DNA from: Limnomonas spitsbergensis
Lineage: Eukaryota > Chlorophyta > Chlorophyceae > Chlamydomonadales
Direction of reading: 5' to 3'
Length of the DNA stretch: 64,000 bases
Assembly: GCA_037349105.1 (NCBI GenBank)
Contig: JAYJMM010000114.1
Location: 3,463,501 to 3,527,500 of the forward strand
The position numbers were made by a program, and so were the translations under genes. Under the pieces are notes generated by a model that ran no database searches, was not told the origin of the DNA, and saw nothing but the letters and a program-made list of their open reading frames with translations. Of this stretch, positions 6,999-64,000 are shown piece by piece. Within the stretch, counting starts at the first letter, position 1. Each line of letters starts with the position of its first letter.

Positions 6999-9092
6999 TC
7001 ACCTCCCGCCCATCCTCTGCACCTTGCGGTGAGGTGCTGCGCGCATGCCGCCAGCGCCACACCTGCCGCCCTGGTCAAACACCTCGCTCTCAGTTGTCAT
7101 GTCGTGGATGCTGGCACGCCGTTTCTCGCGCTTGTCCTTGGTGAGACCCAGGCGTAGGAAGTACTTCTGGGCGTGGCTGGCGACCTGCAGTGGAGGGCCA
7201 TGGGGCGCAAGGAGCAAGATTCAGTGCTGTTGATCATATGGTGAAGGCCAGATACAGTATGGCCTCTTGGGGAAACAGAGCATGCCTGTGGATCTCCGTA
7301 AATCCTATAAACCCTCCACTTGTGCTCACCTGGGTGGGCGTGCGTGTAATGACGACCTCGTTGGCGATGCTCCTCCAGTTCCTGAACAGACAGTAGATAT
7401 AGGCCATTCAGGGAGGCGTAAGGGCAGGGCCAGTGCTGCTCTCAGGGCACTCCTCAAAGCTTCAGCGAAAGGGGGACCTGGTCAGGATTAGGACCTCAAT
7501 GGCCAGAAGTAGCGGCCCGGCGTCTTGTCAGAGGGTATTCTGGTTTCTCTCACAACAATACAAAAAAAACGTGGTATGCATCATTCAGGATGGAGGCAGT
7601 GCACACCCAGGGTGCAGGCCTTACATAGGAGGCAGGTAGGTGTCAGTAAGGGCCAGAGGGGGCCACATCGGTGAGCTAGCAGCTAGGGCTGGGGAATTCA
7701 CCTTTTAATGAAATGTGGGTTCACATGAGCTACTGACCCTCAGCCGTTTGAGGTTCCTCCATCTCTTCTCAACTGTCTAGTCCAGGAGCTCGAGCAGACC
7801 GGGTCAGTCTAGACAGGGGGAAGCAGGAGGCTTGCAACGTGGAGGCGAGACTAGCTGCGACACGCGTCGCAAAGACAACCACGCACAGCGCGACACGTCA
7901 CAGGTAGCCGACTGCCCCAGAAGAAGGTACTACAAAAAACGGAGGCAATGTCCGTTCCACGCCCAGTCGGCCAACGTCCTTCCCTTCCCCAGGATTATTC
8001 CGCGGTTAAGGACGACCCCCTCGCCAAATGGCGCTGGAAAGACCATAGAGGACCAGACGTTCCAACGGCCATACTGTTGTAACCTCTTTCAAAGGACGCA
8101 CTCCTTGCCAAACTGCGCTCAACCCAAGAGGATACTCTCATATCACTAGCAAAGTGACGCACCCTTTGCCGAACTGCGCTAGACCCATGAGGAACAGGCG
8201 GTGCTCCTCCTCGGTCCAGGAGACGCCCTTGCGGCCATCTATGCTGCCCCCTGATGCCTTCGACTCGGTGACAGCCTTGGCTTTGGCCGATAGCTGTAAA
8301 AAGGATTGCAGCTGGGATTATCAGTGAAGATAGCGTGTGCTTGCCTGGTTCAGGCTGCAACAGGATGCCGCTGAGTGTCGCTACACTGGCAAGTGGAAAA
8401 GCTGGGGCAGTTGGTGGGTGGAAAGTAAGCGCATGCATGCATCCGCGCACGAGGGGACACACCGTGCGTTTGATGGTTTTAGGCGATGCTTTGCGATCGG
8501 AAGGAGCTCCGGCACTGATGCTTTCGAGGTCCTCCTGCGTAAATAGGGGCGTTTTAGCAAGCAGGGACTGTGAGCATCGAAGCAGAGGTACAGCTCGTGC
8601 AAATAGATAGTAATGCTACAAGTAAATAGAACATACGGTACCTCGAGAGAGCGGAAGTAGCTTTGCAGCTCGCTGACAGCCTTTTGGGGCAGACACGCTG
8701 ATATTTTCACCCACCTGTGGCAGACATGACACTAGTCAGATGTTATGTAGACCATGCGAGTGTCGCCAGCAACAGAGATCGCAAGTCATCAGGGTGCAAG
8801 CGTGCATCATATTGCTTACCTGTCGACGTCGTTGTAGTGTTGAGCAAGCAAAACCTCGAAGGCCTTGGTTTCCTCAAACCTGAGATGGGGGGGCATGGTG
8901 CACTTGACAGCTTCATACAAAGGAAGGGGGGTGGGTGCTGATTGACATTTTAAACAGGCAGAATACGAAGCGGTGGTGTAGAGTTTCGTTTTTGTGGTCG
9001 GGCAGGCTAGAGACAAGCTGTCTCAGCGGTAACAGCAGGTGCAGCACTCACGTCCATGCACAGTCGGCAAGTTTGACATGCTCGACAAACAT
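6999..9092 (-). CDS. DIVARICATA-type MYB transcription factor with two MYB-like domains and SHAQKYF motif
   Basis: Exons on the minus strand: 9092-9052, 8879-8820, 8714-8642, 8534-8463, 8293-8163, 7381-7330, 7184-6999; all introns GT-AG, phases agree, 615 nt, 204 aa, ATG at 9092 and TGA at 6999. The first MYB-like domain (about residues 13-60) begins [10 protein letters not shown] and contains a DRW motif and a QSYF near its end, as in the R1 domain of plant DIV proteins. The second (about 103-155) reads [16 protein letters not shown], then [10 protein letters not shown] and TRTPTQ, ending in SHAQKYF at about 146-152. These are hallmarks of the plant I-box/DIV MYB class, which binds DNA in the nucleus. 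The protein stops only about 50 residues after SHAQKYF, so it is short. No activation domain is obvious. Target genes cannot be inferred. Exon 5 is followed by degenerate copies of its own donor edge (8020-8162). Confidence 0.9.
8020..8180 (-). repeat. Donor-side junction array of MYB exon 5
   Basis: Three diverged copies, about 65-70 bp apart, of the end of exon 5 plus its 5' splice site. The real copy reads GCGCAGTTCGGCAAAGG|GTGCGT at 8163. Downstream copies on the minus strand keep the CCTCTTGGGTTGAGCGCAGT and TTTGGCAAGG or TTTGGCGAGG phrases, followed by AGTGCG or GGGTCG. Confidence 0.7.
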
Positions 9093-11390: not shown

Positions 11391-11497
11391 CGTGGACCAG
11401 GGTCTCCGTCCCATTACAAGTGGGGTTTGAAGCAATCCATGTTTAATCACTCATTCTTCTGACCACAGCAGCCCCATGGAGGGAAGGACCAAACTCA

Positions 11498-14400
11498 CTA
11501 TGAGCAAACCACGAGAGAAGCAATCTGCTTGACAGTGAGCACGCGGTTGAAGAATACATCGGCTGCCAGGAATGTGACACACCTGATATGATGGAGGGGT
11601 TAGGGGTTAGGTTGCACACCTCATGATGGAGGGTTAAGGGTTCCAGGTGACCCACCTCATGAAGTCATAATGGAGGGTTAAGGGTTTGGGGTTCAGGCGA
11701 CACACTTGATGATGGAGGGGTAAGGGGTTTTAGGGTTTAGGTGACCCACCTCATGATGGAACTTTAGGGTTTAGGGTTCAGGACACACACCTGATGATAG
11801 AGGGGTTAGGGTTTTAGGGTTCATCTGCTGATCAAGGATAGAAAATTATTTCAGAGGGAATCTTGATGTTCAAAGGAGATGTTCAGGGTTGTCTCGGAAC
11901 TGAACCCTAATCCCACCTCTCGCTGTGTAACTTCTTGGCTACAGGGTTGTTCAGGGTTGTCCCTAAATCTGTACCCTAATCCCACCTCTTGCAGTGCAGG
12001 TTCTTGGGTTCAGGGTCAAAGGTTGTCCCTGAATCTGAACCCTAATCCCACCTCTTGCGGTGTAACTTCTTGGCTTCAGGGTTCAGGGTTGTCCCTGAAT
12101 TTGAATCCTAATCCCACCTCCTGCAAGCAGGTTCTTGGGTTCAGGATCAAGGGCTGTCCCTGAACCTGAACCCCAATTCCACCTCTTGCAAGCAGGTTCT
12201 TGGGTTAAGGGTCAAGGGTTGTGTGCTGATGCCTCATCCCAAACCCGATTCCCATCTCCCAAAGCAGGTTCTTGGTCTAAGGATCGAGGGTTGTCCCTGA
12301 ACCCGAGCGCGATTCCCACCTCTCGCGGTGCAGGTTCTTGGCGAGCTGCTCCATGCACGTGATGCTTTCTATGCTGATGCCGATGTCCGTCGTCAGGTGA
12401 GGTGACGAGTGGGAGCGTTGCACCACGTTGTGAAGCTGAGAGAGAAGCTGCTGCCGCTGAAGAAGGACCTGAAGGGACACAGAATCGCGGAGACGAGGGA
12501 GGCAGGGGTTCAGCAGTGTTGTACAGTGATGAATTGCGTCATACAGTCATTGAGTCATGTACAGTGAGGTACATTAACAAGCAATGTAGTACAGCATTGT
12601 AGCACAGTTGTTTTCAGTGTGGACCAGGGGACCAGGACACAGGCCTGTGAGGGGCTGCTGAGAGGCCTCCACTGTGGGAGCCTGCAGAGACAGAACCATG
12701 GCATGAACCATGGCATGCAGAGACAGAACCATGACCAGAACCATGGCATGAACCATGGCATGAACCATGGCATGCAGAGACAGAACCATGACCAGAACCA
12801 TGGCATGAACCATGGCATGCAGAGACAAAACCATGACCAGAACCATGGCATGAACCATGGCATGCAGAGACAGAACCATGACCAGAACCATGGCCTGAAC
12901 CATAGCCTACAGAGACAGAACCAAGGCCTGAACCATGGCCTACAGAGACAGAACCATGACCAGAACCATGGCCTGAACCATGGCCTACAGAGACAGAACC
13001 AAGGCCTGAACCATGGCCTACAGAGACAGAACCAAGGCCTGAACCATGGCCTACAGAGACAGAACCAAGGCCTGAACCATGGCCTACAGAGACAGAACCA
13101 AGGCCTGAACCATGGCCTACAGAGACAGAACCAAGGCCTGAACCATGGCCTACAGAGACAGAACCAAGGCCTGAACCATGGCCTACAGAGACAGAACCAT
13201 GGCATGAACCATGGCCTGAACCATGGCCTACAGAGACAGAACCAAGGCCTGAACCATGGCCTACAGAGACAGAACCAAGGCCTGAACCATGGCCTACAGA
13301 GACAGAACCAAGGCCTGAACCATGGCCTACAGAGACAGAACCAAGGCCTGAACCATGACCTACAGAGACAGAACCATGGCATGAACCATGGCCTGAACCA
13401 TAGCCTACAGAGACAGAACCAAGGCCTGAACCATGGCCTACAGAGACAGAACCAAGGCCTGAACCATGGCCTACAGAGACAGAACCAAGGCCTGAACCAT
13501 GGCCTACAGAGACAGAACCAAGGCCTGAACCATGGCCTACAGAGACAGAACCAAGGCCTGAACCATGGCCTACAGAGACAGAACCAAGGCCTGAACCATG
13601 GCCTACAGAGACAGAACCAAGGCCTGAACCATGGCATGCAGAGACAGAACCAAGGCCTGAACCATGGCCTACAGAGACAGAACCAAGGCCTGAACCATGG
13701 CCTGCAGAGACAGAACCAAGGCCTGAACCATGGCATGCAGAGACAGAACCAAGGCCTGAACCATGGCCTGCAGAGACAGAACCAAGGCCTGAACCATGGC
13801 CTACAGAGACAGAACCAAGGCCTGAACCATGGCCTACAGAGACAGAACCAAGGCCTGAACCATGGCATGCAGAGACAGAACCAAGGCCTGAACCATGGCA
13901 TGCAGAGACAGAACCAAGGCCTGAACCATGGCCTACAGAGACAGAACCATGGCCTGAACCATGGCCTACAGAGACAGAACCAAGGCCTGAACCATGGCCT
14001 GCAGAGACAGAACCATGGCCTGAACCATGGCCTGCAGAGACAGAACCATGGCCTGAACCATGGCCTGCAGAGACAGAACCAAGGCCTGAACCATGGCCTA
14101 CAGAGACAGAACCATGGCCTGAACCATGGCCTGCAGAGACAGAACCAAGGCCTGAACCATGGCCTACAGAGACAGAACCAAGGCCTGAACCATGGCCTAC
14201 AGAGACAGAACCAAGGCCTGAACCATGGCCTACAGAGACAGAACCAAGGCCTGAACCATGGCATGCAGAGACAGAACCAAGGCCTGAACCATGGCCTACA
14301 GAGACAGAACCATGGCCTGAACCATGGCATGCAGAGACAGAACCAAGGCCTGAACCATGGCCTACAGAGACAGAACCAAGGCCTGAACCATGGCATGCAG

Positions 14401-17400
14401 AGACAGAACCATGGCCTGAACCATGGCCTGCAGAGACAGAACCAAGGCCTGAACCATGGCCTGAACCATGGCATGAACCATGGCATGCAGAGACAGAACC
14501 AAGGCCTGAACCATGGCCTACAGAGACAGAACCAAGGCCTGAACCATGGCCTGAACCATGGCCTACAGAGACAGAACCAAGGCCTGAACCATGGCATGCA
14601 GAGACAGAACCATGGCCTGAACCATGGCCTACAGAGACAGAACCAAGGCCTGAACCATGGCCTACAGAGACAGAACCAAGGCCTGAACCATGGCATGCAG
14701 AGACAGAACCAAGGCCTGAACCATGGCTTGCGGAGACAGAACCAAGGCCTGAACCATGGCCTACAGAGACAGAACCATGACCAGAACCATGGCCTGAACC
14801 ATGGCCTACAGAGACAGAACCAAGGCCTGAACCATGGCCTGCAGAGACAGAACCATGGCCTGAACCATGGCCTGCAGAGACAGAACCAAGGCCTGAACCA
14901 TGGCTTGCGGAGACAGAACCATGACCAGAACTAAAGCCTGCAGAGACAGAACCATGGCCTGAACCATGGCCTGCAGAGACAGGACCATGGCCTACAGAGA
15001 CAGAACCATAACCAGAACCATGGCCTGCGGAGAAAGAACCATGGCCTGAACCGTAGCCTGCAGAGAGAGAACCATGACCAGAACCATGCCCAAAACCATG
15101 GCCAGCGGAGACATAACCATGACCAGAACCATGGCATGAACCATGGCCTACAGAGACAGAACCATGGCCTGAACCATGGCCTGCAGAGACAGAACCAAGG
15201 CATGAACCATGGCCTGCAGAGACAGAACCAAGGCCTGAACCATGGCCTACAGAGACAGAACCACGACCAGAACCATGGCCTGAACCATGGCATGCAGAGA
15301 CAGAACCATGACCAGAACCATGGCATGAACCATGGCATGCAGAGACAGAACCATGGCCTGAACCATGGCCTGAACCATGGCCTGAACCATAGCCTACAGA
15401 GACAGAACCATGACCAGAACCATGGCATGAACCATGGCCTGCAGAGACAGAACCAAGGCCTGAACCATGGCATGCAGAGACAGAACCAAGGCCTGAACCA
15501 TGGCCTGAACCATGGCCTACAGAGACAGAACCAAGGCCTGAACCATGGCCTGAACCATGACATGCAGAGACAGAACCATGACCAGAACCATGGCATGCAG
15601 AGACAGAACCAAGGCCTGAACCATGGCCTACAGTGACAGAACCAAGGCCTGAACCATGGCCTACAGAGACAGAACCATGGCCTGAACCATGGCCTACAGA
15701 GACAGAACCAAGGCCTGAACCATGGCCTACAGAGACAGAAGCAAGGCCTGAACCATGGCCTACAGAGACAGAACCAAGGCCTGAACCATGGCATGCAGAG
15801 ACAGAACCATGGCTTGAACCATAGCGTACAGAGACAAAACCATGACTATAACCATGGCCTGCTGCCATCATGGCCTCTCTGGCCAGCAGGCCCAGGCTGC
15901 AGTAGGACATGCTGCACCAGGATCCGGCTGCCACAGGCAGGGAGGCAGCTGGATAGAAGCTGGTGTGCCTTAAACATTACACTGTTGCTCAAGTTGGGCA
16001 GCTGAAGGCACTCAAGACCCGCATCAGTTCTTCACCAAAACCACAATTCAGGTCATAATTATTCAAACAAGGTCTCGCAAAAGGTGGATTCATTCATATA
16101 ATTTTTAATATTGCGTGCTGCAGCTGCTCACCCGTGCATTGCGTTCTTGGTTTAAGGTACAGAGTACAGACCCATAACTCTAAGTTATATATTCGTGTGC
16201 TGCAGCTGCTCACCCGCGAGTTCAGTTCCTGGCAAAGCCCATCCAGCATGACCGTGTCCATCAGCTGCTCCTCATCCAAGTTGCAGGAGGAGACAACCTA
16301 AGGAGGTCAGGAGGCACATGCTGCTTCAGTTAAGCCCCAGACCTTCAGCTAGGCCTACTGTTTTAATTCATGGCAATTTGAAATCCAGCTGCAATTTGCA
16401 GTCGGGCAAATCCTGCTAAGATTCAGATACGGTTCAGCTGCCAGTCAGGGCGATTTGCATGTTCGCCACAATTTGCAGCCACCCACCGGCCTGAGGTGGC
16501 CAAGCAGTGCCCAGGTGCAGCAAGCCATGTCACCAGGGGACACCGCCTGCAGGCCTGCCACAGTCTTATCACAGGGGGGGCGGCCTGATGGCTCAGTGAA
16601 CAGCAAAATACACACAGACTGGCAAAGGCGCACGTGCCGTGCTGGATTCAAACACAGTCAACTGGGCAGATGGGCAGAATGCGCCGTTGGCTTCAAACCG
16701 GGTAACCATCTCGGTGGACACGCACCTTCTCCCAATGCTGGGCGGGGACCTGGCCAACCCCTGTCTTGATCAGCAGAGCCTTGTTGAACTCAGGGTTCAG
16801 GAACTCCAGGTATTTCCCTGTGAAACAGGAGAGACCAGTGCCAATTACACTGTGCATAAGCCAGTCCCGCCTTCTTAAACATGGGGTTCAGGTACTCAAG
16901 GTGTTTCCCTGTGAAGGAGGAGGAGCGTTCATTATAATATGTATCCGACAGCACACGAGCACTGCCTTACTGAACACGGGTTTCAATGATTGGAGGCGTT
17001 TCCCTGTGGAGGTGGAGGAGCAGTCAGAGCAGGAGAGCCTGTCTTCCTTTCATAACGTACCAGACCACCGCTGTTGAACTCTGGATTTAACAAGTCAAGG
17101 TATTTGCCTGTGGAGGAGAAGAACCAGTGGATGGAGGGCAGATCCAGGTTCAAGTACTAATGGTGTTTTCTTGTGAGGGGGGGGGATTCGTGTTTCTTTG
17201 TGCGCCCCAGTCTTTATTCACAGCTCTTTATTGAACACGGGGCTCAAGAATTCAAGGTTCGGCCTGAGGAGGAGGAGGTCCAGTCGGAGGATGTTTCTTC
17301 ATTGCATTGGACAAAGCAGTTTTTGGTCTGCCAGTCCACCTTGCAGAAGGCCAAACCTTGACTGGCCTGTAGGCACAGGCCCAATCGACACAGCTGTCCA

Positions 17401-20400
17401 TGAATAAGGCCTCCAACGGAAGGCCTAGAAGCCACTGCTACGTACCTAAACTGCAGCAGAGCCAATGACCAAGAATAACTGCTGCAACTCACCGATGTCC
17501 GTCATCCCGCGAATCAAGAGCCGCAGTTGTAGGCACGCTTCTTCTTGTGTCAAGGACCCTGACCGGATCCCCCAGAGCGAAAGGTTCCCCGACGACTCAG
17601 GCTGCGGCTGTTGGTGGGCGATTACCAGGGCAGTGCAACTACCGCAGTTGGGCTGGCCAAGGGTCCTGCCTGACCCTAATGTCGAGGGGAAGCCGGCGGA
17701 GTCCAAATCGCAGGCGAGCAGCAGCCGCGAGATCTCCTCGACCACCTTCTCAAAGATCTTGCAGGCGCCGGCGACGTCCAGCTTCATGAGCTGTGGAAGT
17801 GGTCCGAAATTCAAAAAATCGAGTACAAGAATTCGCAAGGATTTGCTGTGGGGAGGCAAGAAGGGGAACATGAGGAGCAGAGGATGTGGAGAGTCTTAAA
17901 AGCATTTCTTGGGAGCCGTTGCCATGTCCCTGGAGCAACGCATCTGTAGCCCTACCGACATTCCCTTTCAAACATCAAACATGCCCCAAACAGTGCACGG
18001 CAACTGCGGGAATACCGCAAGCTTAAGAGTCATCCTTTTTCGATCATGGTAACGGATCCTGGGACATGGGATCCCCTTCCAAACATGCTCCATGTGACAG
18101 GCACCCCTTGCACAAGTGCTTACATCCATCATGGTCACAGACGCCAGCACAGGGTGTGCCGCCACTGGAGGCGCCTCGCCGACTAGGCGAGAGCTGACTA
18201 GCTTGGTCCATGATTGGATCTGCTCGTCCCGCACCTGCAAACGGTTAAGGGTCAAGGGTCAAACACTGAACCGGATCTGCTCATCACGCACCTACCACGG
18301 CATTAGGGTTAAAGGATTTACCCTCAACTGGCTCTACTCATCACACACCTGCGCATTGCAGAGCAGGAATCATGTCTGGCTTTCAGATTCTAGAGTGCCT
18401 GCGCTGCAGCAGGTTTCTGCTTGCAATTCAAACTCTCAAGCCCATATTGAATACGGTAACAGCATATGAGACATGTTACCAGTATTCATAAGGGTTTATC
18501 TTTTAGAATCAGGTATCCTATCTGACGTTTCGATTTCGAGAGGCCTGCGCAGCTAGGGGGCTCCCCCTGTACGCAGCACCAGGTTGCAATTCAAACTCTC
18601 AATCGTTATTGAATACAGTATCAGCCTGGTAACAGCATTTGAGACAGATTACCGGTATGTGTATGGGTTCATCATTTAGAGGCAGGAATCCAGTCTGAAA
18701 TTTCGACTTAGGGGCCTGCAAAGCAAAATAGGTTTCAGCAGGTTTCAGCTTGCAATTTAAGCTCTCAATTGTATTTTGAGCGCGGTACCCACGTATGAGA
18801 CAGGTTACCGACTTTCATCTGGGTTCATCATTTGAGAGGCAGGAATCTAGACTGACGCTTCTATTTGGGGTCCTGCGCAGCAACAGGTTCCAGCTTGTTA
18901 TTCAAACCAGCTTGTTATTCATACCAGGTTTCAGCTTGTTATTCAAACACTCCAGCGTATCTTGAATACAGTACCAACATCAAGGCAACATGTGAGAAAT
19001 AGAGAACCGGTACCATAATTCACATTTCACAGGTTCGACATTATAGGGAAAGGATTCCAGCCTGACATTTTGATTTGGGGACGCCTGCGCTGCAGGAAAA
19101 TGCACATTGTAACTCTAACTCTCAATCGTATCTTGAACACAGTACCAGCATGTGAAACATAGAGTAAGGGTATGCACAAGGGTTTATCATTTAATTTTTA
19201 GGCAAGAATCCAGTATGAGTAAAAAACTGAATCCTATTGTTTTTCTCTTTTTTCTCGCCTATTAAACAATCCGCTTTACTTGCATGTTTGTCCTGTTTTG
19301 ATTGAGGGAGCCTGTTCTGCAGCAGGTTGCAGCTTGCAATTCAAACTCTCGGATATTGAGTAAGGGACCAGCAAATGAGAAGCAGAGCACCAGTACTCAT
19401 ACAGGTTAACCCTTCTACAGGCAAGATTGCAGTCTGATGTTTCAATTTGGGGGCGCATGCGCTGCAGCAGGTTTCCGCATGCAATTCAAACTCTCAATCG
19501 TGAGTTGAATAGGGTACCAGCATATGAGTACACGGAGTACTGGATACCTGTATTCATGCAATCATATGGGTTCATCGTTTTACAGGAAGGAAAACAGTTA
19601 AGTTTCAATTCGGGGGTGCATGCACTGCAGCAGGCTGCAGCTTCCATTGCAAATTCTCAATCGTATTTTGAACGTGTTCACAGCATATGAGACACATGAG
19701 CCACGGATACTTGTATTCATACAATTATGAACAGGTTAATCATTTTAGAGGAAGCAATCCAGCCTGACGTTTCAATATGGGGGAGCATACGCTTCAGCAG
19801 GGTTTTTTTCTTGCGATTCAAACACTCCCGGATACGGTGTGTGAGGCATGAGGGGCCTTCAGAAAGGTTGATCCTTTGAGTATGAAGAACTGAGCAGACC
19901 TTGACCCCAGAAAGCCAGGTCAAGACCTGCTCATATCTTCGGGAAAAGAGGTGAGCAGACATTGACCCAAGCCAGACTACCACAAGCTGGCCAGATGACC
20001 AGGACTGGACACGCAACCCTTACATCCACCGATACCAGATCAAAGAAGTCAGGATAGGCGCCAGGTTCATGATGGGTAATGATTTTGTGTACAGGTGAGA
20101 AAATCTGTGTAGAATGTGAGGAAGATAATGGGGTAGAGGGTGAGTAAGCTGGTGTAGAGGGTGAGGAGCACAACCCCATCGAAAGTCATTGTACACATGT
20201 TGGAGGCCTTTCAAGGATGATCGAAGGCTACCAGCACACTGGTATCTAATGGAATTCCTTCTTAAAAAAAATCACGTGAGCACGCAGGAGCGGAGTACGC
20301 GTTCATGGACTCAAAACAGGAGGTAAGGTTCAGGGTTCGGGGTAACCAGCTAATACTCACCCTCCCTCTGCGTTGGCAAGGAAAGAGCAGGCTCACCAGG

Positions 20401-23269: not shown

Positions 23270-23863
23270 AGGATGCGCTAACTATGAAAGCAAACGCTGC
23301 ATTATTAAATATGCAATGAAGGGGAAGTGTTTTGACGAGACTGCGAAGGGCTTACCCGGGGGTGCTCACGAAGCCTAGGTTTATTACCTGTGTATCGTAC
23401 AAAATGAAAAGAGGCACTGGATGATGGATGAGCACAAATAGGTGTACCGGCAGGTTCAAAATGGAGTTCACAATTGATCGCCGTGGGGGCCGGGCGGTGA
23501 GCAAGTGCGTCCCAATATCCTCGTGGTTTAAACCATGCGTAAACCACGTAAACCTCCCTCGTCCAGGGAGTCACGTACTCACGTGGCGAGGAGTTCTTAC
23601 ATAGGGTGCAAAACCCTAAAATTACGCTCAACCTGCACTAAACCATGCACCAGTACATCTAAGACATCTAAGTATTCAGAGTGTGGATGAGGTGTGGATG
23701 CTCTTCGGTGCATTAATTTCTGTAATCTACCTTCTGAATGCTAAATATACCGACACCTCACGTCGGCCTCGTTCAAAGATCCGCCCACCAGCAGGGACGA
23801 TCGCTCGCAAAGCTGGTAGCAAGTTAGCGCGTGCAAAAGGGGGCCTAATCACGCCCTGCATAA
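23270..23863. promoter_or_regulatory. Divergent promoter region between bZIP-like and PACRG-like genes
   Basis: The start codons of the two genes are 594 bp apart and point away from each other, so both promoters and 5' UTRs must lie here. AT-rich patches occur near 23300-23320 and 23735-23755. I could not assign specific transcription-factor sites. Confidence 0.6.
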
Positions 23864-26800
23864 ATGGCAGAAACAAATTATAGCCCAAGGTTCCCTGCAG
23901 CGCCTGCGACATCTCCTTGGGATGGCTTCCAGATGAACCCTCCGGCACATGGCAGCCCGACAGGCGCAGGGCCGGGCGCAGGGCGAGACCCCAGTACTGC
24001 GAGGATGGCATGGGGTGGCGGGGCAGTGAATGGGCCACCCCTTGAAAACGGCATCAGGCACAACCAAGTGAGTACCATGCTTGCTGATACAAAGAATGGC
24101 TACCGTAGGTATAGGGGGGTCAAGTGTTTATATTAGTAGTGCGCACCAAGCTATCTTTCTTCCTCAGGCCTCTGGGCAGCCCCACCATTAGGCTAATGGA
24201 GACCAAACCTAGTCCGGCCCATCCACATAGACGTAGGCCGTGCCACAACCAAGCTTCAGCTGAAGCAACATAAAATGAACCAGTTCACCCAGCTGTAGGG
24301 GCATGGCAAGGTGTGGCGGTACAAAATTGAGCAGCGAAGCGACAGTACCTTCTCATTGGACTTAACGAATCCTTCAATAAGAGCATCAAGGACATGGCAG
24401 ACTACAGCCGAGACGCCGTAGTTCACACAAACACTGTCGATGGAATGAAGCTGAGCGGCTGAGCCCCGTCCATTTTCTTTGTCCTCCCAGGTTGAACACT
24501 GGAAGAGGCAGGAGGAGCCATCACCGGGGGCACGCGACCCTGCTGCCATCTCCAAGTGTGACTTTTGGGCTGGCTCCTTTTGCATCCCTGCATGTACAAA
24601 CCGTAGCCTGATCCCCAAGCCCTAAACCCCTGAACCCTAAACTTTTAACCCTAGACCCTGGCCCCTGTATCTAAGTCGGCGTTTTTGCTGGATACACTCA
24701 CTCCTTTGCTTTATTTGTTACTGCTGCATATGTTCAATATTTGGGTGGGCGACTGACTGATGGGGTGCCTGTGTCACGTTTTTGACGAGAATTGAGCCCC
24801 GTCCTCAACTGAGAGCAGTGCTGTGCAATTGCGCCGTAATTCAAAAATTGTGTACCAACAGGTAATTATTACGGTCCCCTACCTGTTAAAGTAGCTGAAA
24901 TTACGATGATTGAAACTCAGCTACGTAACATAGCCACCGTGAGGACCGTAGGCGGAACAGCACTGACTGAGATGCATCATCATTACCTGTTTTTTGTGTG
25001 TCTATTTTAGGGTGCCACAGCTACAATTCAGCTACATCACAGCCTACGGACGGGCTGGTCTGGTGTACAGGACCTGTTGCTTTGGCCTCTGACAGGTTGC
25101 CGGTTCAGGTTTAGGGTACCTCATTGGCCCAGTGGTGGCCGTGGCGGCCCCCAAAGGTGGTCTGGTCCGCGCTTACGTAGACTTGTGAATAACTGCCGCA
25201 GGTTCTCCGCATCCCCCTACCAGAAGGAAACGGCCATCCGAGCAGCGGAGCGTGCCATCCGTCCTTGGGCACCGTACGGCGCCGGCCTGGGCGAGCGCCA
25301 GGGAGCGGCCTTGGCCCACGTGGGGCCTGCCTCGTTTGCTGGGCTGAAGCAGGCAGTGGCTTCACAGCAGCAGGCTGCGGGGCCCAGGCCCCAGGAGGGG
25401 GACCAGGCGGCACAGGAGGCAACGCCCACAGCGCTCTATCATGTAGCGCCAGAGGCGGCTGAGGCCATCGGCATTGCAGCTGGCAGGGTGGGTCAACCAC
25501 ATTCTACTTCAGGGTGCTAGAGCTACGATTCAGCTACATCACAGCGGTTGTAGCTGAATCGTAGCTCTAGCGCCCATCACAGCGGTTGGCCGAGGGGATG
25601 TTCGAAGTATTTGTCAGGGAGCTTAAATTCTTCATTCCAATCGGGAATGTATGCATGTGCAGCAAACCTGCCACTTGGACCACCGGCCGTAGGCCGGTCA
25701 AAGTTTGGGCCCCATTGGCACAGTGGTGGCCAAGGGGGTGGCTGCCCAGCGACCTGCCGGAAATGACCTGGTGCACAGCAAATGAGCACCTAAGGTCGAC
25801 AGCTCCTGTGCTGAATGACCTCGTCCGGTCATCAAGCCCTATGAATGGGGGTCTAAGGTTTTCCCTTGGCGTTGTGAAAGCGCTGACCATGGGAAACGCT
25901 ATCCCGAAACGGGTTACCCATGGGAAAACTGTGAGCCCTGATCTTTAAGGTAGCTCAGGCGCATTCGATGGCAGCAGCTTGCTGCTGTGACCTCCTGCCC
26001 TCAATCTCAATGCCCTCGGCTATGGCAGCACTGCAAACATTTTATCAAGATCTGAACTGCCGTTTGCGGACGCATCACTCCTGCACCCTTTAGGCTCCCA
26101 ATGGGATGCACACAAGCTTATAATCTGTCCCTTCCTCACCCCATGTTAAATCCAATCTGCCTGCACTGGTCGCACGTGCTGGAACAGCCCAGGAGTCTGA
26201 TCCGCTGATCCTACCGGTACTACATGTCAATAGCATGCGACAGTTTTAGCTTCACAATTGTGCCCTTCCTGTCATCCCTTTTTAATCCAGCCTGCCTGCA
26301 CAGGTCGCACGTGCTGGAACAGCGCAGGTGTCTGCTCCTGACGCATGGTCGGCGGTCCCGCATGGAGTGGGGCGGCAGCTATGGCCGGTGAACCTCACGC
26401 TGCCCCCGCGCTACTGCACCGGCTGCAGAGGCAAGTCTCTAGTGTAGGATTTAGGGCATCAATCCTAAATCCTTAACCCTAAGCCATAACCCTAAGCATT
26501 AATGCACCTCATGCAGAGGCAAGTGTCTAGTTTAGGGTCTAGGGTATAAACCCTACACCATTAACCCTATGCATTAATGCACCGGCTGCAGAGGCAAGTG
26601 TCTAGTGTAGAATTTAGAATATGAACCCTATACCATAAACCCAAAAAGCATTAATGCAGTGGCTGCAGAGGCAAGTGTCTAGCTTAGGGTTTAGGGTATA
26701 AACCTTAAACCATAACCCTAAGCATTAATGCACCGGCTGTAGAGGCAAGTGTCTAGTTTAGGATTTAGGGTGTAAACCCTCAACCCTCAACCCTATAAAC

Positions 26801-52435: not shown

Positions 52436-52955
52436 CTCTCTAGGCGGTGCTCAATCGAACTCTTTTGCACCCACGTCATGTTTTATGGCTGGGGCTTATC
52501 TTCTGCACTATAAGGTTCATTCCCACGCCACTGTCGTGGTTGTGTGCTAGTTGCTTGCCCAGGGGGGTCACTGGTTTTCGCTTTCTGTCCTAGTGTATCA
52601 AGTGCCTGTACCGGTTTACGGGCATATGTCCCATGCATCAAGTGTGATGCTCTGTTGGACTGTAAAAACTTCACAAAAACTTCACATGGGGCTGCTGTTG
52701 CACTTTGGCTTGCGGCTGGTTTGCAGGCGCAAGTCGCAGACGTCATACACCTGCGGGTTTTCAGAGGTTCGAAACTTCCTTTGTATTTTGTGTTTTCCGG
52801 CCTTTTGTTTTGTCCCTTCACTTTATTTCCCACTTTCTTCCCTTATCTTTCCTGCCCCCTTCTGTGTTTCTTTCCATCTTTCCTCCCAACTCTTTAGCTA
52901 GGCGCCCACGCGGCCGAGCCTTACTTGAGGAGGGCCCAGAGGTGTAACGTCATCG
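51263..52955 (+). mobile_element. 5'-truncated non-LTR (LINE-type) retrotransposon
   Basis: Holds the C-terminal third of a reverse-transcriptase polyprotein (51263-52435) and about 520 bp of 3' UTR. The 3' end is a pyrimidine-rich tract, then GGCGCCCACGCGGCCGAGCC, then GGGCCCAGAGGTGTAACGTC. No poly(A). At least six short copies of this 3' end occur in the window in both orientations, typical of 5' truncation during target-primed insertion. Confidence 0.88.
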
Positions 52956-55536: not shown

Positions 55537-58500
55537 ATGCAGCGCCCGAGGGCTGCCACCGGTGCTAAGCTTTCAGTGCCCAAGCCCGTAAACTTGCCAT
55601 CGATCAAGAAGGTACGATTTGTCAAAGCCAACATCCTGACCATCTTCCAAGCAGTCTCAGCTCATCAGAATAGGACGTAATATCGTGGTTCATTCGTGTA
55701 GGAGCATGCCGGGAATGATCCGACCACCCAGCTTGTCCCTGCGAGTGGAGGATCGGGGACGTGGACCAAGCCCGAAGAAGCAACCGCTGCTGAGTCTGCA
55801 TCCCAGCCGATAGTATCCTCGTCCACTTGGGCTTCAGCTCAGGGCGCAGGACCCTGGCAGCCTCCTGCAGGACCTCCCGCTACTGCTATTCCGACCGCGG
55901 CCCCGACATACCGAGGGCCCGCGGACCGCTTGCTCAATCCCTCTGAGTATCCCAGCTTGGCTGCCAGTGCCAACGCTGAGGCCACAGCTGCCGCACAGAG
56001 CCGGCTTGTCAAGCCGGGTCAGGATCAACGGGTGAGCTCGAGTCAAAAACCACTTAAGCCCGAATTCCACGCAGCAGCGATGCCCACGTCTGGATAGACC
56101 AGAGCAGTTCCTTTTTGACTGCACATCTATACAGCAGAAACGCTCAAATACATGGCGTTAAGCATGGCAGATGCGGGACACGTGAATGGTGACCTGTCAT
56201 GGCACCACGTAGGGCGCATGCCTGACTGTATTTGGCAGAAACCAGTCAGCTTGGGCCCGTGCGGTGCAGCTTCGAAGCATGTCAGTTGTCCAGAAATTTT
56301 ACGGGAGGATGCATGGAATCCTGGCCTTCTGGATGTCCTCTTCTTCCCATACCTCCCATACCTTGAGTGATCTCCTGGGCGTTTTTTCCCTGCAGGACTT
56401 GCGCTGGGCGGATGATGAACGAGCTGGAGCTGGAGCTGGAGCGGAGGGATGGAGAGGAGGGGGTGACTGGTGAGACTGAGAGCATGCTTGGTCATCCAGT
56501 GTTGTGTTCAAGGGAGGATGATTCGCCATGCAGCCCATGGTTGCACTTGATATGAGCACATAAAGGAAACCAAAAGCCATCCAGATGTGAGCTGGGTTAT
56601 GATGGGTTAAGGAAAAGGCTTGGAAGATGGGAGGTGCACCTCCGCCAAGCCATGTGGAGATTGTGGAGAGAACAGCATCTGCAAGGGAGGGGGATTGGTC
56701 GAAATGCATCATATTATGCATCATACGACCCTGTTTATGTGCGTTGCACCGACTCGGACGATTAGAACCTGACATCGTCCTTTTTTTGACGTCATCTTTT
56801 ACCGCAGGAGCCGGGCAGATGGCTTTGATGACGAGCGCTTTGTTGCCGACCGGCCCCCGGGCGGCTGGGGAGTGGAGGGCTACTCCCAGGGTGGCGATGC
56901 CCGCCATGGCCGATACGATTACGACGGGCCTTACGGGCCCAGGGGTGGTGGCTACGACGATGACGGCAGGGACGGTGGAGGCAGGGGAGGAGCCAGGGGG
57001 GGACATGGTGGCGGCGGTGGTAACTACGGTGGCGGCGGTGGTGGCAGCTATGACCAAGGGTACGGTCAGCCGCCAGCGCATGGGCCAGCCTACCACAACC
57101 AGCGCGCGGGGGGAGGCGGAGGAGGGGGCTACAACGACGCACACCACCCTCCGCCGCCCCCGCCCCCGCGACGGGGAGGCGGACACCAGGACCGATACGA
57201 CGGGCCGCAATCGGGGTACAACGGCGGCTATGACCCGTACGAGGACCGCGGGATCCTCCCTCCTCCGCCCCCTCAGCGCGGTGCACAGGTAGAATGATTG
57301 GATGTTCCAAGGGCCGGTTTCTCTCAGTGCATGTAGGAGGCATCGATGTTTCAGGCTCATCAAAGTGGATGTATCAGGCATCAGCCTTTTAGGGTCGGCT
57401 ACTCTTAGTCTTAGTGCAGTGCAGGTAGGCATTGGCAGTGTGCCTGGAGGCATTGGCAGTGCATGCAGGCGGCACCGGCATTTAGGGTCGGCTCTACGTC
57501 AGCGCAGCATCGGTGGATTGCCAGATACAGGGTCATGGCAATGTAGGGTTGAGGGCGCACATGGTCGGGGGGGTGGGGTGAAAGAGGCTTTTGAATTATG
57601 ATAGCATGAGAGCTCAATCTCCTTGGGGCGTGGGGTCCACGGAAACAGCATGGACCGGCTGAACATGTCAAGCCGCATGGTCGCTGGCTTTCTTGTTTCC
57701 TCCGCATTCTTTGACCCCACTGGATGCAAAGCCCTGTTTTGAAACCTCCTGATGCGTTTGGGCTGCACGAACTGAGGAGATCCCTACTCATTTCATTAAC
57801 CTGTTTGAAACCCCCCTGGTGCGTTTGGGCGACACGGACTGATGAGGTCCCCACTCTTTGCAAATATCTGTTCTGAAACCCTGTTGTGTTTGGGCCACAC
57901 AGCTGACGGGGAGCCCACTGGTTGCAAAGCCCATTGTTTGGGGGTTGCGCAGACTGAAGGTGACTACACTCGGAGCACAGTTGTTCTGAAACCCCATTGC
58001 GTCTGGGCTGTGAAGGCTGACGAGGACCCCACTTGATGCAAGTGCCTGTTCTGAAATCCCTGTCGTGTTTGGGCTTCACAGATTGAGGAGGCTGAGGAGG
58101 AGGACGACCCTGAGCGCCGCGCCTTCCAAGCGGAGCTGAGGCGGGTGGCGGCTGATCTAGAGCGGGTAGGTGCCCTGTAACCTGGATGCATTAACCCTGT
58201 CTCGTAGGAGGAGTTTAAGTGGCTGCGGACTTCGGAGAGGGGGGAGGTGTTCAGAGGTGGACAAGTGACTGTGGGGAATGGGAGGGGATAGGAGCAACAG
58301 GCAGGGGGGGGGAGGGAATGGGAATGGGCGGGAATGGGAGGAACTCGTAAGGAGGGAGGTGTTAAGAGTGGACAAGTGAGGTGATGGTTGCAGATTTGGG
58401 TGCTGTCTGTGTGTGAGCAGTCGTCGATGGGCATGAATAGCCCCTTTCTGTGAGCCTAGATTATGGCTCATGAACATCAAGGGGGTCTGGTCGGACTGAA

Positions 58501-61500
58501 GTGCTCCCGTGCTGAATGCCAGCGTTATGTGGAGTAGAAAACTTGACTACTCTATACAACTTTTTTCACATAAGAATTCTCCTGTGAAATTTACTAGGGC
58601 TGCATGCCCAATTTTAACAGAAGCTGAAGTTTTTTTTTGTCAGGGACCTGCCTGCAGATGTTTTCACCTGTCTTTCCCCAATCCTGCTTTCAGCGCAAGA
58701 ACGAGGAGCGCGGAGAAACAGGTTCGGACAAGCGCAGCGCTCCGCACCATGACAACGAAGACGCCTCGTCGTCGAGGTCCCGAGGGGACAGCCAGGCCGC
58801 GAGCGATGGCGAGGGACAGCCTGTGGTGAGCCTGGGGTTGAGGGATCTTGACCGTCCCGCGGCGGGTGGCCCAAGCAGCAGGCCCCTTGCTGCATCAAGC
58901 CCTGCCAGCGGTAGGGTTAAGGGTTAAGGGCATCTTAGCCTTAACCCTAAAGCCCAGGCAGCAGGCGCCATGCTGCACCAGGCCTTAGGTGGCGACGTAG
59001 CTAAATTGTAGCTGACTCACCCTGAAATAGAAATAGACAGTGGGCATCTCAGAGAGCAATATCTGCTGCGACTGCCTACGGATGGTGGCCCAAGCAGCAG
59101 GCGCCTTGCTGCACTAAGCCCTGCCAGCCGTAGGCCTGAAGATATAACTTCATTGCAGCGGAATCAGAGCCGCATCGTAGCTGAATAAAAGCTGCATGAT
59201 AGCGTCATTGCTGCAGAAGCAGAGCTGCTTTGTAGCTGAATTAAAGCTGCATGATAGCTTCATTGCAGCAGGATTAGAGCTGCTTTGTAGCTGCATGATA
59301 GCTGGATTTAGCTGCGTTTTAGCTGAAGCAGCCTGGAAGTATCCAGTGGTTGGAGCGGATCGACGCGCCGAGCTTGGACTGGCTGTTGCTTGCAATGTTT
59401 TGGTATTGGACCTTGGGTCTTTGTTTGGCTTTGGCCTCGGTCTCGTAGCTTTTGCCAGCCACCGGCCTGTACCTCTCCAGCATCTTGACGGATGTCTGAT
59501 GTTTCTTCTGCCCACCACCCCTGTCAGCAGCATGACACCGTACCTCATGGAATTGAAAGATGCGTTCCAGTGCTTCCCTGCGTCACGCTGACAGCACTGG
59601 CTTAGCTTACAGCAGTGACTCTGACAGCGGCTAAACCGCACCACTGCTACGCCGCTTGCTGAGTTTAGGGTTCAGAAACCCTTAATCCTGAACCCTTCAG
59701 GATTAAGAGTTTCTGAATCCTTTAATGAACAGCATTGACAATTTGACACTGACAGTGGCTGCACTGCACCAGTGCTACACTGGTTGTTGAGCTTGTGGCG
59801 GTGTCCATGGACGCATGTTCCCGCACCCAAGTGCTGTCCCATTGCCACCCTACAGCATGGCCGTTTTCAAATCTTGCATGGCGGCCACCATGCGTTACCC
59901 TTGGAGTCCCCTTTTGCCCCCATGCAGCATGGTCGCTCAAAGTCATGCCTCATGGCCTCCATGCAGCATGGCCGCTCAGAGTGTTGTCTCATTGCCTCCA
60001 TGCAGCATGGCCGCCCCACCAAGTCCCGCATGGCCCCCGCCGCCCGCGAGGGGCCTGAGGATGACCTGGAGAGGCAGCGCCGTGAGCGTGCGAGCGAGAA
60101 GCTTAAGCTGCTGGAGCTGCAGATGGCGGCGCGGACAACGGCGGCGGTCAGCGACGCGCCCCCCTGGAAGAAGCCCAAGGAGGAGGTGAGGCCGGGAGGG
60201 TGGGGCGCCCTCTTCTCATCTCTGGGCAAGCAGCGCTGTTTTTTTGATGTCGAGGTGCACGAGTTTGTTGCGCAGTCCATGCTACGAGCATCTGATTGGC
60301 AGACCTGGGGTGGGTCATCTGTATGACCTGGATACCTCTCTTAGTCCCTCCTTTTCAATTTTTTAACTTCCTTTTCCTTCTCTGTTTCTCTTCTCCTTTT
60401 TCTTCCCTTCCCTCCTTTCCTGCCCCTGATCCTCTGCCACGTGTCGCGTGCTTGCAGGAGGTTGAATGCGAGGAGGACCGCGAGGGACATCATCCGGCGC
60501 GGCTTGAGGCCCCGGACCAGGGTGAGGGAGGGGTGCAGGGCCACTTCCTCAGATCTAGATCTACAGTGCCCAGGGATCCCGTGCAACTTCCTCAGATCTA
60601 GATCTACTGTGCCCATGAGGCCCCGGACCAGGGTGAAGGACAGAGGGCTGCTGCCCCCCTGCTAGATGCCTCTGGCAGGCAGGCCCCCGGGCCCCCCTAG
60701 AGTTCTTGGATTTGTTCTGGGATTGGACCTTGTGGCATGGTGTCGCTGCGCTGCCAGTCTCTTCTAGCATGTCCCCTGTCCAAAACACCCGCATTCGCCC
60801 TGAAATGCCCTGATATGGCTCTGGACAATAACATTTCTCCTGTTGTTGCACAGGCAAAGCACCCACGCACGTTTCCTGACCCCCCAAGCACTCGGATCCG
60901 CCCTTAAGCTAAACCTAACCCTCCCCAGACTCCAAGATATGCTCTTGAAGCCTGCCTGAACCTTGCTTGCTTCCGCTGCACTCGCAGAACCCGCAGGCGT
61001 GCGACCTCCCCCCCCGGGCCTTGTCGGAGGGATCAGCAAGCACGGGGCAGGCCCCCAGCTTGGGCCTGCAGACAGTCAGGTCCTACCCCCGCCCCCGCCA
61101 CTGCCTCCGCCGCCGCCGCCGCCACGCCCGGGACCGCCCCAGCCTTTGTCTCAGGACATCCGGAACATGCCCCACCACCAGCAGCAGCAGCAACAACAGC
61201 ACGGCGGCCCAAGGGACGTGCCTGGGATACACGTCAGCAGCCAGCAGAAGCCACAGCAGCAGCAGCAAGTCCAGATCAAGCAGCAGCATCAGCAGCCGGT
61301 GCCTCATGCGCCACCTTTGACGCTCCTGCAGCACGCGCCGACGCAGCAGCGGCCGGTGCCAGCTGTGAGCCACCATCAACAGCAAGAGCCGCAGCGGCCG
61401 ATGCCGATGCCGGCCAGCAGCGCCCTTTTCGGGTCGTTTGACGACGATCTGCTCAAGGAGCTGAGCAAGGTGCCGCAGCCGGGGCGGCAGGTCTTGGTGG

Positions 61501-64000
61501 AGCAGCTGGGGAGGCAGGCCCAGGCGGAGCAGGACAGCAGGCGGCAGGCGCTGGTGGAGCAGGACAGCAGGTCCAAGCCTTGGAGGCCAGGTAATGGGCA
61601 GCTTCTCTTTGGCTTCTGAAGCCTGGAGTGAAGATGAGCTTGCAAGTTTGAATTCGTGGAATACACCATGCTGTGTCTCATGATTGGCTTGATGAAGCGG
61701 TGTGTTTATCGCCTCCATTTAATCAGTCGGTGTCTAGTGTCTACCCTCTCTCTCTGCTTGCGGCGCAATTGCGTTGCTGCTCACTCGTGGATCATCTTTT
61801 CTCAATGTAACAGTGCCGTGTATTTCACCTCTCACGCCTCTGGCAGCGCAGTGCGCCACGCCTGTGCTGCTGACCACTGAACAGTTTCTGACATAAAGCA
61901 CCTCTTCGCAGATGAGGGCAGTTGAATCATAGACATCCTTTTCTTTATTGAACAGCTATTTAAAATTTCAAATCTCCCGCCTCTTCGCAGCTGAAGGTGC
62001 CCCGCCCTCGCTGCTGACGCACGGAGCACCGCTGCATCAGCAGCAACCAGAGCATGTGGTGGAGGTCTTGAAAGAGAATGAGGATGGGTGGGTTTGAATG
62101 CGCGAATGGTTTATCTGGAACAGGAATGGGTAGAGACCTGTATTCTGAGTACCACAGACTTGAACGATGCGTCCTTTTGCCGCATATCATGATAACCGTA
62201 TGTACCATGTACTTCGCGTTGCCAATGTACTTCACTTACACTGGTAGTGCTGCTGTACTAGTCGTTTGTTTATAATAGTACTTCTGGATTCGGTGCTGAT
62301 CAAGTGATGACGTGGTCCAGAGCGTGGTAGTGGTGATACACCCTGAACTGATTCAATAGTGTGGCTTGCGTTTGTCATTTCGCGAAATGTATGCTCTGCA
62401 CCGTGGCACCTTGCAGCACGAAGGACCAGGTGTTTTTCACTGGCTTCGACACTTTCTACATGTTTTCACTTGCTTCCAATTGAAAGCCCTAGGGTTCACA
62501 AAATCCATTTCATGTAGAACCTGTTTTATACACAGTTCCCTCCTTGCACTCGTAGGGTCCCGGAGATACATTTCATCTAACCGTGTTATGCACCTTCCCC
62601 CCTTCAGTCCTAGGGGCCAGGAGCTTCCTGCCGGCAACCGCGGGGACCGTGGGCGCAACGGGCGGGGTGTCGCCATCAAGGGCGTCCGTGGGGGGGTTCC
62701 CTCCAGGGAAGCGTCAGCCTCCTCCGCCGAGGGCCTAAGTGGCAAACCGCGGGGCGCAGCAGGCAACGGCGAGCGGCCCGGCAGCGGCCCCTCCTCCCTG
62801 CGCGGCCGTGGGGGCAGCGGGGTGCGCGGCCACGCCCGGGGCAGCAACGGCCTGGCTGACAACGGGGTTGAAGGCGGTGGTGCAGACGCCTCGGTGGGTA
62901 TGTGGGGCGGAGGCGGAGGTGCACGCGGCGGGGATGGCCCAGGCGGGCGGGAGCCCGCCCGGGGCGGGCGTGCTCCATCGAATGTTCCGCCCCGCTCCGG
63001 CAACAACCACCGCCCCGTGCAGCTGCTTCAGCACCCTTCGGAGGCGGCGGCGGCTTCCGCCGCAGTGATGGCCGCAGTGGCGGACGTGGGCATGTTGCGG
63101 GTGCCGTTGGCAGCGTCGGGGGTGGAAGGCAGCTGGGTGGGCCCGGGGCCCGCAGCGCAGGCTCCAGCAGCCGCGCCCGGCAAGGTCGCCGCGGGAGGTG
63201 GACCGTCGCTGGCTGACCCAGTGGTTGAGTTTGATCGACAGGTAAAAAGATGTTTGGTCTTTGGTCTTTAGGGGTGCATAAAGAGGTTGAGAGCCGCATG
63301 CGGCGCAGATAAAGGAGGGGTGGCTTATTAAGGCTTACGTGAGTGATGGTGTACCATTGGAACATAAACACAAAATTGCACACGGTTAGGTGTCCCTAAA
63401 TCAGAATGATGGGTCTTGTTGTCCGATTGGACCTTCTGCTTTGAGGGTTGGATGCCTTTTGAACCCCAGTGCGCTTTCCTGTTTTCAACCTGTTGTCTGC
63501 TGGGACCTCCCGCCTTGATGGTTGGGCGCTTTCTGAACCCCAGCACGCCCCTCTGCCTCGGATAAAGGATGCAAACCCTTGCTTTGATGGTTGGACGCCT
63601 CCTGACCCCTGCGCGCCCACTCGTACACCCTGACCTGCTTTCAGGTGGGACCCAAGCCTGCACACGCGAGCTCCGCCCCAGATCTCCAGCCAGGGCACAT
63701 TGCGGTCGCCGCCAAGTCAGCGGCCTCGTTGAACAACGGCAGCCTGTTGGCGCTGCCCGCAGATCTTACCCTGGAGATGTCGCTGCCGCCTCCGCCTCAG
63801 CAGCAGCAACAGCAGCAGATGCGGCCGCCCATGGGTGGGTACTCTTCCGCTGGCTCGGCAGGCGGCGTAGGCGCTGTTCAGCAGCAACAACAACAGCAGC
63901 AGCATGTGGGGAGGGCCGTCGGTGGACCTTTTGGCTTCAGTTCCGGAGGCCCGCCCCCTGCTAGGCACGAGCCGACGCAGGGGCCGAGGGGCGGGGCGCC
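55537..64000 (+). CDS. BAT2/PRRC2 N-terminal domain protein, MOS1-like (3' end outside window)
   Basis: Exons: 55537-55611, 55702-56031, 56396-56469, 56808-57288, 58082-58165, 58694-58825, 60006-60185, 60458-60521, 60988-61590, 61991-62087, 62608-63241, 63645 to beyond 64000; at least 1036 aa, all GT-AG and in phase. The ATG at 55537 is the first in frame. Residues 10-45 read KLSVPKPVNLPSIKK, then GNDPTTQLVPASGGSGTW, and near 110 NPSEYPSLAA: this is the order of the BAT2 N-terminal domain (compare VPKPINLPS and DFPSLG in Arabidopsis MOS1, ANLPSLK and EEFPTL in animal PRRC2). Then DLRWADDER (136-144), a Gly/Tyr/Arg-rich RGG-like stretch (about 190-290), an ERQRRERASEKLKLLELQ coiled-coil segment (about 410-430; cf. 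the RARQRREEE helix of PRRC2/MOS1), Gln/Pro-rich tracts (500-620) and Gly/Arg-rich C-terminal parts. MOS1 controls expression of an immune receptor gene in Arabidopsis; PRRC2 proteins act in mRNA translation and granules. Role here is inferred: nuclear/cytoplasmic RNA regulation. Confidence 0.88.
57690..58095 (+). repeat. Acceptor-side junction array before MOS1-like exon 5
   Basis: About six units of 60-80 bp. The real junction is GTGTTTGGGCTTCACAG|ATTGAGGAGG at 58082. Copies upstream read TGCGTTTGGGCTGCACGAACTGAGGAG, TGTTTGGGCCACACAGCTGACG, TGGGCTGTGAAGGCTGACGAG and similar, each followed by CCCCACT-GATGCAA and GTTCTGAAACCC. Confidence 0.85.
59850..60010 (+). repeat. In-frame 39 bp acceptor-side array before MOS1-like exon 7
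   Basis: CCATGCAG|CATGG occurs at exact 39 bp steps (its first C at 59920/59959/59998) with the last one used as the acceptor at 60006; an older, diverged copy lies near 59850. The units are open in the exon frame, so use of an upstream acceptor would add 13 or 26 residues starting HGR. Confidence 0.85.
60508..60640 (+). repeat. Donor-side duplication of MOS1-like exon 8
   Basis: The exon end GAGGCCCCGGACCAGG|GTGAGG at 60521 is repeated at 60616 as GAGGCCCCGGACCAGG|GTGAAG. Between them CTTCCTCAGATCTAGATCTA occurs twice. Confidence 0.9.
62480..62620 (+). repeat. Acceptor-side duplication before MOS1-like exon 11
   Basis: Two to three diverged units of about 60-80 bp: CCCTAGGGTTC near 62488, CTCGTAG|GGTCCCGGAG near 62550 and the real CCTTCAG|TCCTAGGGGCCAG at 62608, linked by ATTTCATGTA/ATTTCATCTA and GTTTTAT/GTGTTAT phrases. 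Confidence 0.6.
63420..63655 (+). repeat. Acceptor-side junction array before MOS1-like exon 12
   Basis: Three diverged units of about 70-75 bp upstream of the real CTGCTTTCAG|GTGGGACCC at 63645: CTGCTTTGAG|GGTTGGATGC (63434), CCGCCTTGAT|GGTTGGGCGC (63512), TTGCTTTGAT|GGTTGGACGC (63582), each followed by CTGAACCCC-GCACGC-like text. Confidence 0.75.

Follow-up and report, generated by a model that had tools for sequence, protein, structure and literature searches.

Local tandem duplications, often spanning splice junctions, lengthen introns in the green alga Limnomonas spitsbergensis

Why should the introns of an alga contain tandem, degenerate copies of the very splice junctions that bound them? 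This question is raised by a 64-kb stretch of the genome of the chlorophyte Limnomonas spitsbergensis (contig JAYJMM010000114.1; GC content 53.4%; hereafter, the window), in which a first-pass annotation described such copies in five genes. The window belongs to an assembly of 260,226,709 bases in 124 contigs; the published genome of this species comprises, according to the accessible part of its description, 260.248 Mb in 124 contigs, with 54.15% GC.

Window positions 7000-64000 were read, and five genes were modelled (Table 1). For the PACRG gene, the query in both the homologue and the Pfam searches was an early hand model, partly wrong (one false exon included, one true exon missing), that scored 21.9 bits against PF10274, just below the cut-off of 22; the five PACRG-family homologues (P0001-P0005; identity 39-45%), one of which belongs to Haematococcus lacustris, all contain PF10274, and a homology model then took over from the hand model. 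Weak 5' exons of this gene (23791-24555) were left out of the counts. In the MYB gene, the MYB domain PF00249 runs on across the junction of the exon at 8163 in the hand-spliced protein. A Pfam search with the submitted pieces of genes A, Z and Q yielded no family at E <= 0.1; gene A presumably resembles a bZIP factor and gene Q PRRC2/BAT2, and the CCHC-like knuckles after which gene Z is named are likewise a presumed likeness, each of these three lacking a family match.

Within the window, 18 of the 64 exon edges of the five genes, 4 of them in the PACRG gene, have a strong copy (score of at least 16) in their own intron, compared with 4 of the 3052 pairings of an edge with the introns of other genes; the claim of own-edge copies at 18 or more exon edges thus stands. 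The PACRG intron that starts at 26431 has a GC donor (GCAAGT), and its array copies retain the GC. By eye, telomere-like CCCTAAA/TTTAGGG words are present in many array units of unrelated introns (26475-26825, 40860-42830).

Table 1. Gene models, junction copies and other intronic arrays in the window (positions are those of the window)
Feature	Position	Strand	Basis
MYB gene	about 7.1-8.3 kb	-	window gene model
Gene A	12.3-23.3 kb	-	model by reading only
PACRG gene	25.2-32.8 kb	+	exons set by homologues
PACRG-family exons	25202-25487, 26304-26430, 27065-27162, 27758-27914, 28402-28579, 30983-31223, 32278-32372, 32724-32844	+	homology-guided spliced alignment; 5' exons uncertain
Gene Z, CCHC-like knuckles (zinc-knuckle)	about 39-43.4 kb modelled	-	model by reading only
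Gene Q	55-64 kb	+	model by reading only
Donor-type copies, GGCAAAGG|GTGCGTC, spacing about 85 bp, after MYB exon 8163-8293	8020..8162	-	reading; score 22, p 0.017 vs foreign edges
Donor-type array, about 66-bp units, after gene A exon 12320-12468	11885..12319	-	TRF; score 22; gene model by reading
Donor-type copy after gene A exon 16214-16297	16110..16213	-	reading; score 24; gene model by reading
Acceptor-type degenerate copies before gene A exon 16726-16817	16818..17270	-	reading; score 24; gene model by reading
Acceptor-type copies before gene A exon 18124-18234	18235..18360	-	reading; score 20; gene model by reading
Donor-type degenerate copies, wide spacing, after gene A exon 21326-21556	20440..21325	-	reading; score 15, p 0.019, below cut-off of 16
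Acceptor-type copy, about 135 bp 5' of PACRG exon 26304	26141..26204	+	score 34; 35 exon + 28 intron bases, identity 86%, offset 135
Donor-type array, about 77-bp units, GC donor (GCAAGT) retained, after PACRG exon end 26430	26416..26825	+	TRF 26475-26825; reading; score 33
Donor-type array, about 26 units of 68 bp, GCTGCAAGG|GTGCG, after PACRG exon 28402-28579	28571..30323	+	TRF; score 23; genome search: sole locus
Acceptor-type degenerate array (about 93 bp) before PACRG exon 32278-32372	31740..32277	+	TRF 31863-32199; reading; score 22
Donor-type copies after gene Z exon 41126-41227	40860..41125	-	reading; score 29; gene model by reading
Acceptor-type array, 66-bp units, before gene Z exon 41126-41227	41228..41669	-	TRF 41249-41669; score 28; genome search: sole locus
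Donor-type array, 33-bp units, after gene Z exon 43229-43395	43054..43228	-	TRF 43054-43245; score 27; genome search: sole locus
Acceptor-type copies before gene Z exon 43229-43395	43396..43680	-	reading; score 17
Acceptor-type array (about 67 bp) before gene Q exon 58082-58165	57720..58081	+	TRF 57725-57881; score 16; gene model by reading
Acceptor-type 39-bp array before gene Q exon 60006-60185	59916..60005	+	TRF 59916-60014; score 25; gene model by reading
Donor-type copy after gene Q exon 60458-60521	60522..60640	+	reading; score 24; gene model by reading
Acceptor-type copy before gene Q exon 61991-62087	61900..61990	+	reading; score 16; gene model by reading
Acceptor-type copies before gene Q exon 62608-63241	62500..62607	+	reading; score 18; gene model by reading
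33-bp array, gene A intron, clear copy of neither edge	12691..15860		TRF; acceptor edge score 13, p 0.096; donor copy of that intron separate at 16110-16213
35-bp array, gene A intron, copy of neither edge	21838..22456		TRF; both edges of intron score 9

Other repeats are present in the window as well. A 390-aa open frame at 51263-52435, for which no Pfam family was detected above the cut-off, has at least 41 matches in the genome (one of them a 108-base piece) at 97-100% identity and hence represents a repeat family that spread recently; judging by eye, we take it to resemble the end of a LINE open frame. The stretches 33410-33520 and 52570-52680 are near-identical by eye, and because the latter directly follows the repeat frame, the former may be a truncated copy of its tail. 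A motif of CAGCTACA repeats, also noticed by eye, is found at 24880-25140, 31260-31400, 33650-33700, 37860-38160, 46020-46120 and 46500-46650; at several of these sites, a GGCCG..GGCCGGTCAAGG..CCCATCGGCCCAG-like stretch comes next. The motif is perhaps a dispersed repeat family located both within and between genes.

To avoid the bias of models made by eye, introns beyond the window were placed by homology, with repeats ignored. Searches of the genome itself produced 139 kinesin, 72 CCT/Cpn60 and 83 dynein DHC_N2 matches; the DNA around 30 kinesin matches, 30 CCT matches and some further stretches was processed with a spliced aligner that combined profiles built on the matched exons (on homologues in the case of PACRG) with a simple splice consensus. 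A set of 116 introns left out 7 introns shorter than 60 bp, 21 whose flanking exon piece was under 12 bp and 21 duplicates; after this set, 30 introns were added and 8 dropped, and the final set consists of 146 introns from four gene families (kinesin, CCT, dynein and PACRG), several of the loci being mutual paralogues.

In 47 of these 146 introns, the own donor or acceptor edge is copied (score of at least 16), including 37 of the 69 introns of at least 400 bp; by length, the rate is 0/17 at 60-150 bp, 3/29 at 150-250 bp, 7/31 at 250-400 bp, 14/38 at 400-600 bp, 12/18 at 600-1000 bp and 11/13 at 1000 bp or more. At scores of at least 18, copies were detected for 18 donors and 30 acceptors among own edges, compared with 9 and 13 of 21170 for foreign edges, so that own edges fare far better than other edges in the comparison that the first-pass annotation had set as its check. 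The alignment extends over at least four exon and four intron bases at 55 of the 58 edges scoring at least 16, and the duplicated blocks consist of intron and exon bases of one junction, that is, they are of the boundary-crossing type. These copies include a median of 35 exon bases at an offset of 118 bp, and the nearest copies 30 exon bases at 87 bp; 25 of 55 copies have an offset divisible by three. Copies are found at 36 acceptor edges vs 22 donor edges (p = 0.087). The junction-copy pattern recurs in genes on many contigs, as expected of the recurring process that had been proposed. In one arbitrarily chosen 4-kb stretch (L080), the putative end of an exon precedes 48 exact copies of a 23-base word in which the donor is included.

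An artefact of the assembly, or of gene models fitted to the copies, would be a concern for window genes A, Z and Q, which were modelled by eye after the copies had been seen. However, the 146-intron test was built from protein profiles and a simple splice consensus and was blind to repeats, the copies at the homology-placed edges are mostly diverged (identity 73-100%), and the published assembly derives, according to the accessible part of its description, from PacBio reads whose read-length L50 is about 33 kb; we therefore judge an artefact very improbable. Arrays at many junctions and paralogous introns of unlike length could also result from a mobile intron family, an introner-like element that inserts at splice sites. 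Such an element is contradicted by the restriction of all three array units tested to their own loci in a genome search (very common words and simple repeats were skipped) and by the confinement of foreign-intron matches scoring at least 18 to paralogue pairs in the 116-intron set; the units, moreover, hold local exon sequence. We hardly find a mobile family credible, in agreement with the earlier view that units are unlike between junctions.

The copies contribute to intron length. Repeats account for 36% of the 70,429 sampled intron bases, and the median length of the 146 introns is 599 bp with copies vs 277 bp without, whereas the unrepeated length is similar (274 vs 245 bp, p = 0.61); copy-bearing introns are longer by about their repeated bases. 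The possibility that copies are tolerated in long introns only was rejected given the equal unrepeated length and the 14 of 47 copy-bearing introns with less than 150 unrepeated bp. Across 15 hand-picked pairs of homologous introns of paralogues, length differences go with repeat-base differences (Spearman 0.79, p = 4e-4), the summed repeat-base difference being 2412 of 4427 bp; where the length difference exceeds 60 bp (10 pairs), repeats are more abundant in the longer intron in 8 pairs and absent from both introns, by the same measure, in the remaining 2. A trio of dynein paralogues shares five intron positions with unlike lengths: intron 3 spans 265 bp in C75 and 948 bp in C112, with extra copies of a unit of about 63 bp that begins 6 bp inside the donor and includes no exon bases, so that the array lies beside the junction and the junction itself is uncopied. 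Local tandem duplication lengthens introns in this alga, and the intron growth suggested by the first reading of the window is borne out.

Paralogues with common intron positions and mostly very unlike intron lengths are represented by L074, L075 and L076; C39/C99; C36/C119; and L072/L073, groups that are useful for dating duplications. L075 (the dynein heavy chain paralogue on C112) contains an in-frame TAG and is otherwise near-identical to the C75 copy, which points to either a decaying copy or a sequence error.

Does the splice junction itself trigger the duplication? Anchoring at splice sites was the original proposal; in such a case, some event there (breaks, microhomology such as AGGT, or co-transcriptional structures) would start the copying, and the excess of own-edge over foreign-edge copies, the richer acceptor side and the small exon share of the duplicated block are all in line with this. 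The coverage by local repeats, however, is flat, with no junction peak, in 37 introns, in 75 introns of at least 250 bp and in 24 introns of at least 700 bp (about 0.25-0.42 in the latter). In the 75 introns, scored in 24-bp windows against the own intron only, such that duplications wholly within exons would escape, donor-side coverage is 0.07-0.15 along the intron vs 0.11 at the edge, acceptor-side coverage is 0.13-0.23 along the intron vs 0.16 at the edge, and exon coverage is 0-0.013 at 54-60 bp inside and 0 from 66 bp; the repeat fraction in exon interiors is 0.0098 of 816 windows. Furthermore, of the 72 introns in which 40 or more bases are repeated, 28 lack a junction copy at the cut-off used, and the share of those with such a copy (44 introns, 0.61) is about as predicted by a simulation of random placement with the observed block sizes and one to three events (0.34-0.75), where the unit sizes were taken from junction-spanning arrays, which favours the fit; the mean number of repeat blocks per intron is 2.2. 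With no coverage peak and with random placement matching the observed rate, the junction is no evident anchor, contrary to the original proposal. Exon penetration is shallower than under uniform placement (median 0.37 of the offset, KS p = 3e-4, 56 of 58 edges), so that either selection or some placement bias is needed; selection against deep exon duplication would explain the small exon share, and a placement bias could do so as well. Because of this shallow reach, anchoring at the junction retains a small probability, but we consider it unlikely.

The copies could, alternatively, be functional rows of alternative splice sites selected for isoform diversity, an extension of the initial interpretation of the arrays as alternative sites. 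GT or GC is present in 90 of 104 donor copies, with a dinucleotide identity of 0.89 vs 0.81 in the context (raw values), and 64 of 119 donor copies score at least as high as the used site by the simple aligner score, a count strongly swayed by two arrays of more than 20 copies; by the same simple score, the used site is equalled by one or more decoys in 17 of 24 donor arrays. Against this, AG is present in 78 of 154 acceptor copies, the acceptor dinucleotide identity of 0.83 equals that of the context, 0.83 (in a tally of at most 40 copies per edge, with one acceptor array at 40 or more), exon frames into arrays show no extra openness relative to those into other introns (p = 0.23 and 0.29), and array length is very unlike between paralogues. 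Selection for open frames into arrays was accordingly rejected, and we regard functional rows as quite improbable; judging from these sequence features, there seems to be little indication that the copies are retained as splice sites. The PACRG 68-bp donor array (28580-30323) has a plus-strand stop frequency of 0.0006 per base vs 0.0356 in the window, with the exon frame open for 621 codons, a stop depletion that donor arrays as a class do not share.

In homology-supported exons, the copy used is the exon-proximal one, a choice that needs explaining given that many donor copies equal the used site by the simple score. Where the introns on both sides of an exon are long, splicing favours the sites that lie nearest across that exon (Carranza et al., PMC9225289, in the part accessible), and under such a preference, duplication of a junction would be harmless.

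Repeat density is 0.29 in introns, 0.05 in the flanks of seven LINE-like copies and 0-0.03 in four unmodelled window stretches. The contrast between introns of at least 250 bp (0.27) and the LINE flanks first suggested arrays specific to introns, an idea that was rejected because five arbitrary stretches have a mean density of 0.30 (range 0.08-0.88); the densest of these, L080, itself resembles a donor-type intron array. Given the uneven repeat density outside genes, the process may still be tied to introns or transcription. A stronger version, in which gene-linked junction duplication with an intron-side bias from a transcription or splicing step (suggested by the shallow exon penetration and the acceptor excess) is a main engine of intron length in this lineage, with decoys checked by exon definition and some released as regulated isoforms, seems doubtful to us; if true, dozens of equal decoy splice sites per intron would be held in check.

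The probable explanation, in our view, is that frequent local tandem duplication shapes introns, with blocks placed near randomly relative to splice sites, purged in exons and tolerated across edges. Short blocks would duplicate locally in tandem (the nearest junction copy lies at a median offset of about 87 bp), and some would expand into arrays, their placement being roughly random with respect to splice sites. Duplications inside exons would be purged and those inside introns would be neutral, whereas edge-crossing duplications would be tolerated while splicing stays with the exon-proximal copy, leaving spare junction copies to decay in the intron. Long introns, together with the recognition of exons as units (exon definition), would account for the choice of the exon-proximal copy. 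As duplicated blocks often straddle an exon edge, rows of spare splice sites would then arise in introns; we infer that random placement combined with purifying selection could be the whole cause.

As a source of the long introns seen in chlamydomonadalean algae, local duplication is a simple and testable proposal. 'Conspicuously long introns' have been described in this group (PMC8226300), and introns of 516 and 934 bp are given for two relatives (PMC11247165), in the accessible parts of both papers; the parts covered of the L. spitsbergensis genome paper put the mean intron length at 788 bp and unclassified repeats at 22.78% and do not mention such arrays. The arrays also provide a natural competition test of splice-site choice and a warning for gene finders, such introns being rich in plausible false junctions.

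Intronic minisatellites are locus-private tandem units whose copy number varies between related loci. The arrays described here resemble them in their head-to-tail, locus-specific units (TRF; 3/3 units) and in the copy-number difference between dyneins, but differ in that the units commonly span a splice site plus a median of 30-35 exon bases, and in the 36% load. Internal gene duplication was reportedly the subject of work by Gao and Lynch in 2009. In the potato RdRp gene, a single tandem genomic duplication over an intron-exon boundary made a new intron (PMC4974935, in the part accessible); the block, made up of 3' intron sequence and the adjoining 5' exon sequence, is like the acceptor-type copies here, but that case concerns one gene, one event and a new intron, whereas here the copies lie within introns, in 47/146, often as arrays. 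The Rogers model, as described in the same accessible part (PMC4974935), derives intron gain from duplication of an exonic AGGT segment and likewise invokes local tandem duplication involving splice signals; however, in that model an exon-internal duplication supplies both sites of a new intron, whereas the arrays of the dynein trio lie in introns of shared position. Competition of equal splice sites was addressed by Reed and Maniatis, as cited in the accessible part of PMC9225289, and that study itself, too, deals with near-equal sites competing in one pre-mRNA, using an alternative-splice-site database and minigenes, whereas the competitors here would be natural tandem copies in the genomic DNA, up to tens per intron. 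Introner elements, in which one element is copied into many genes (PMC9860276, in the part accessible), are likewise recurrent intron-associated repeats, unlike which the units tested here are locus-private. In the literature searched, mostly papers outside subscription journals, no report of junction-copy arrays of such breadth was found, and the precedents are single cases, in keeping with the novelty assumed at the outset. The arrays thus belong to a known kind, intronic tandem duplication; what appears to be new is their load, presumably unusually high in this genome, and that they often span splice junctions.
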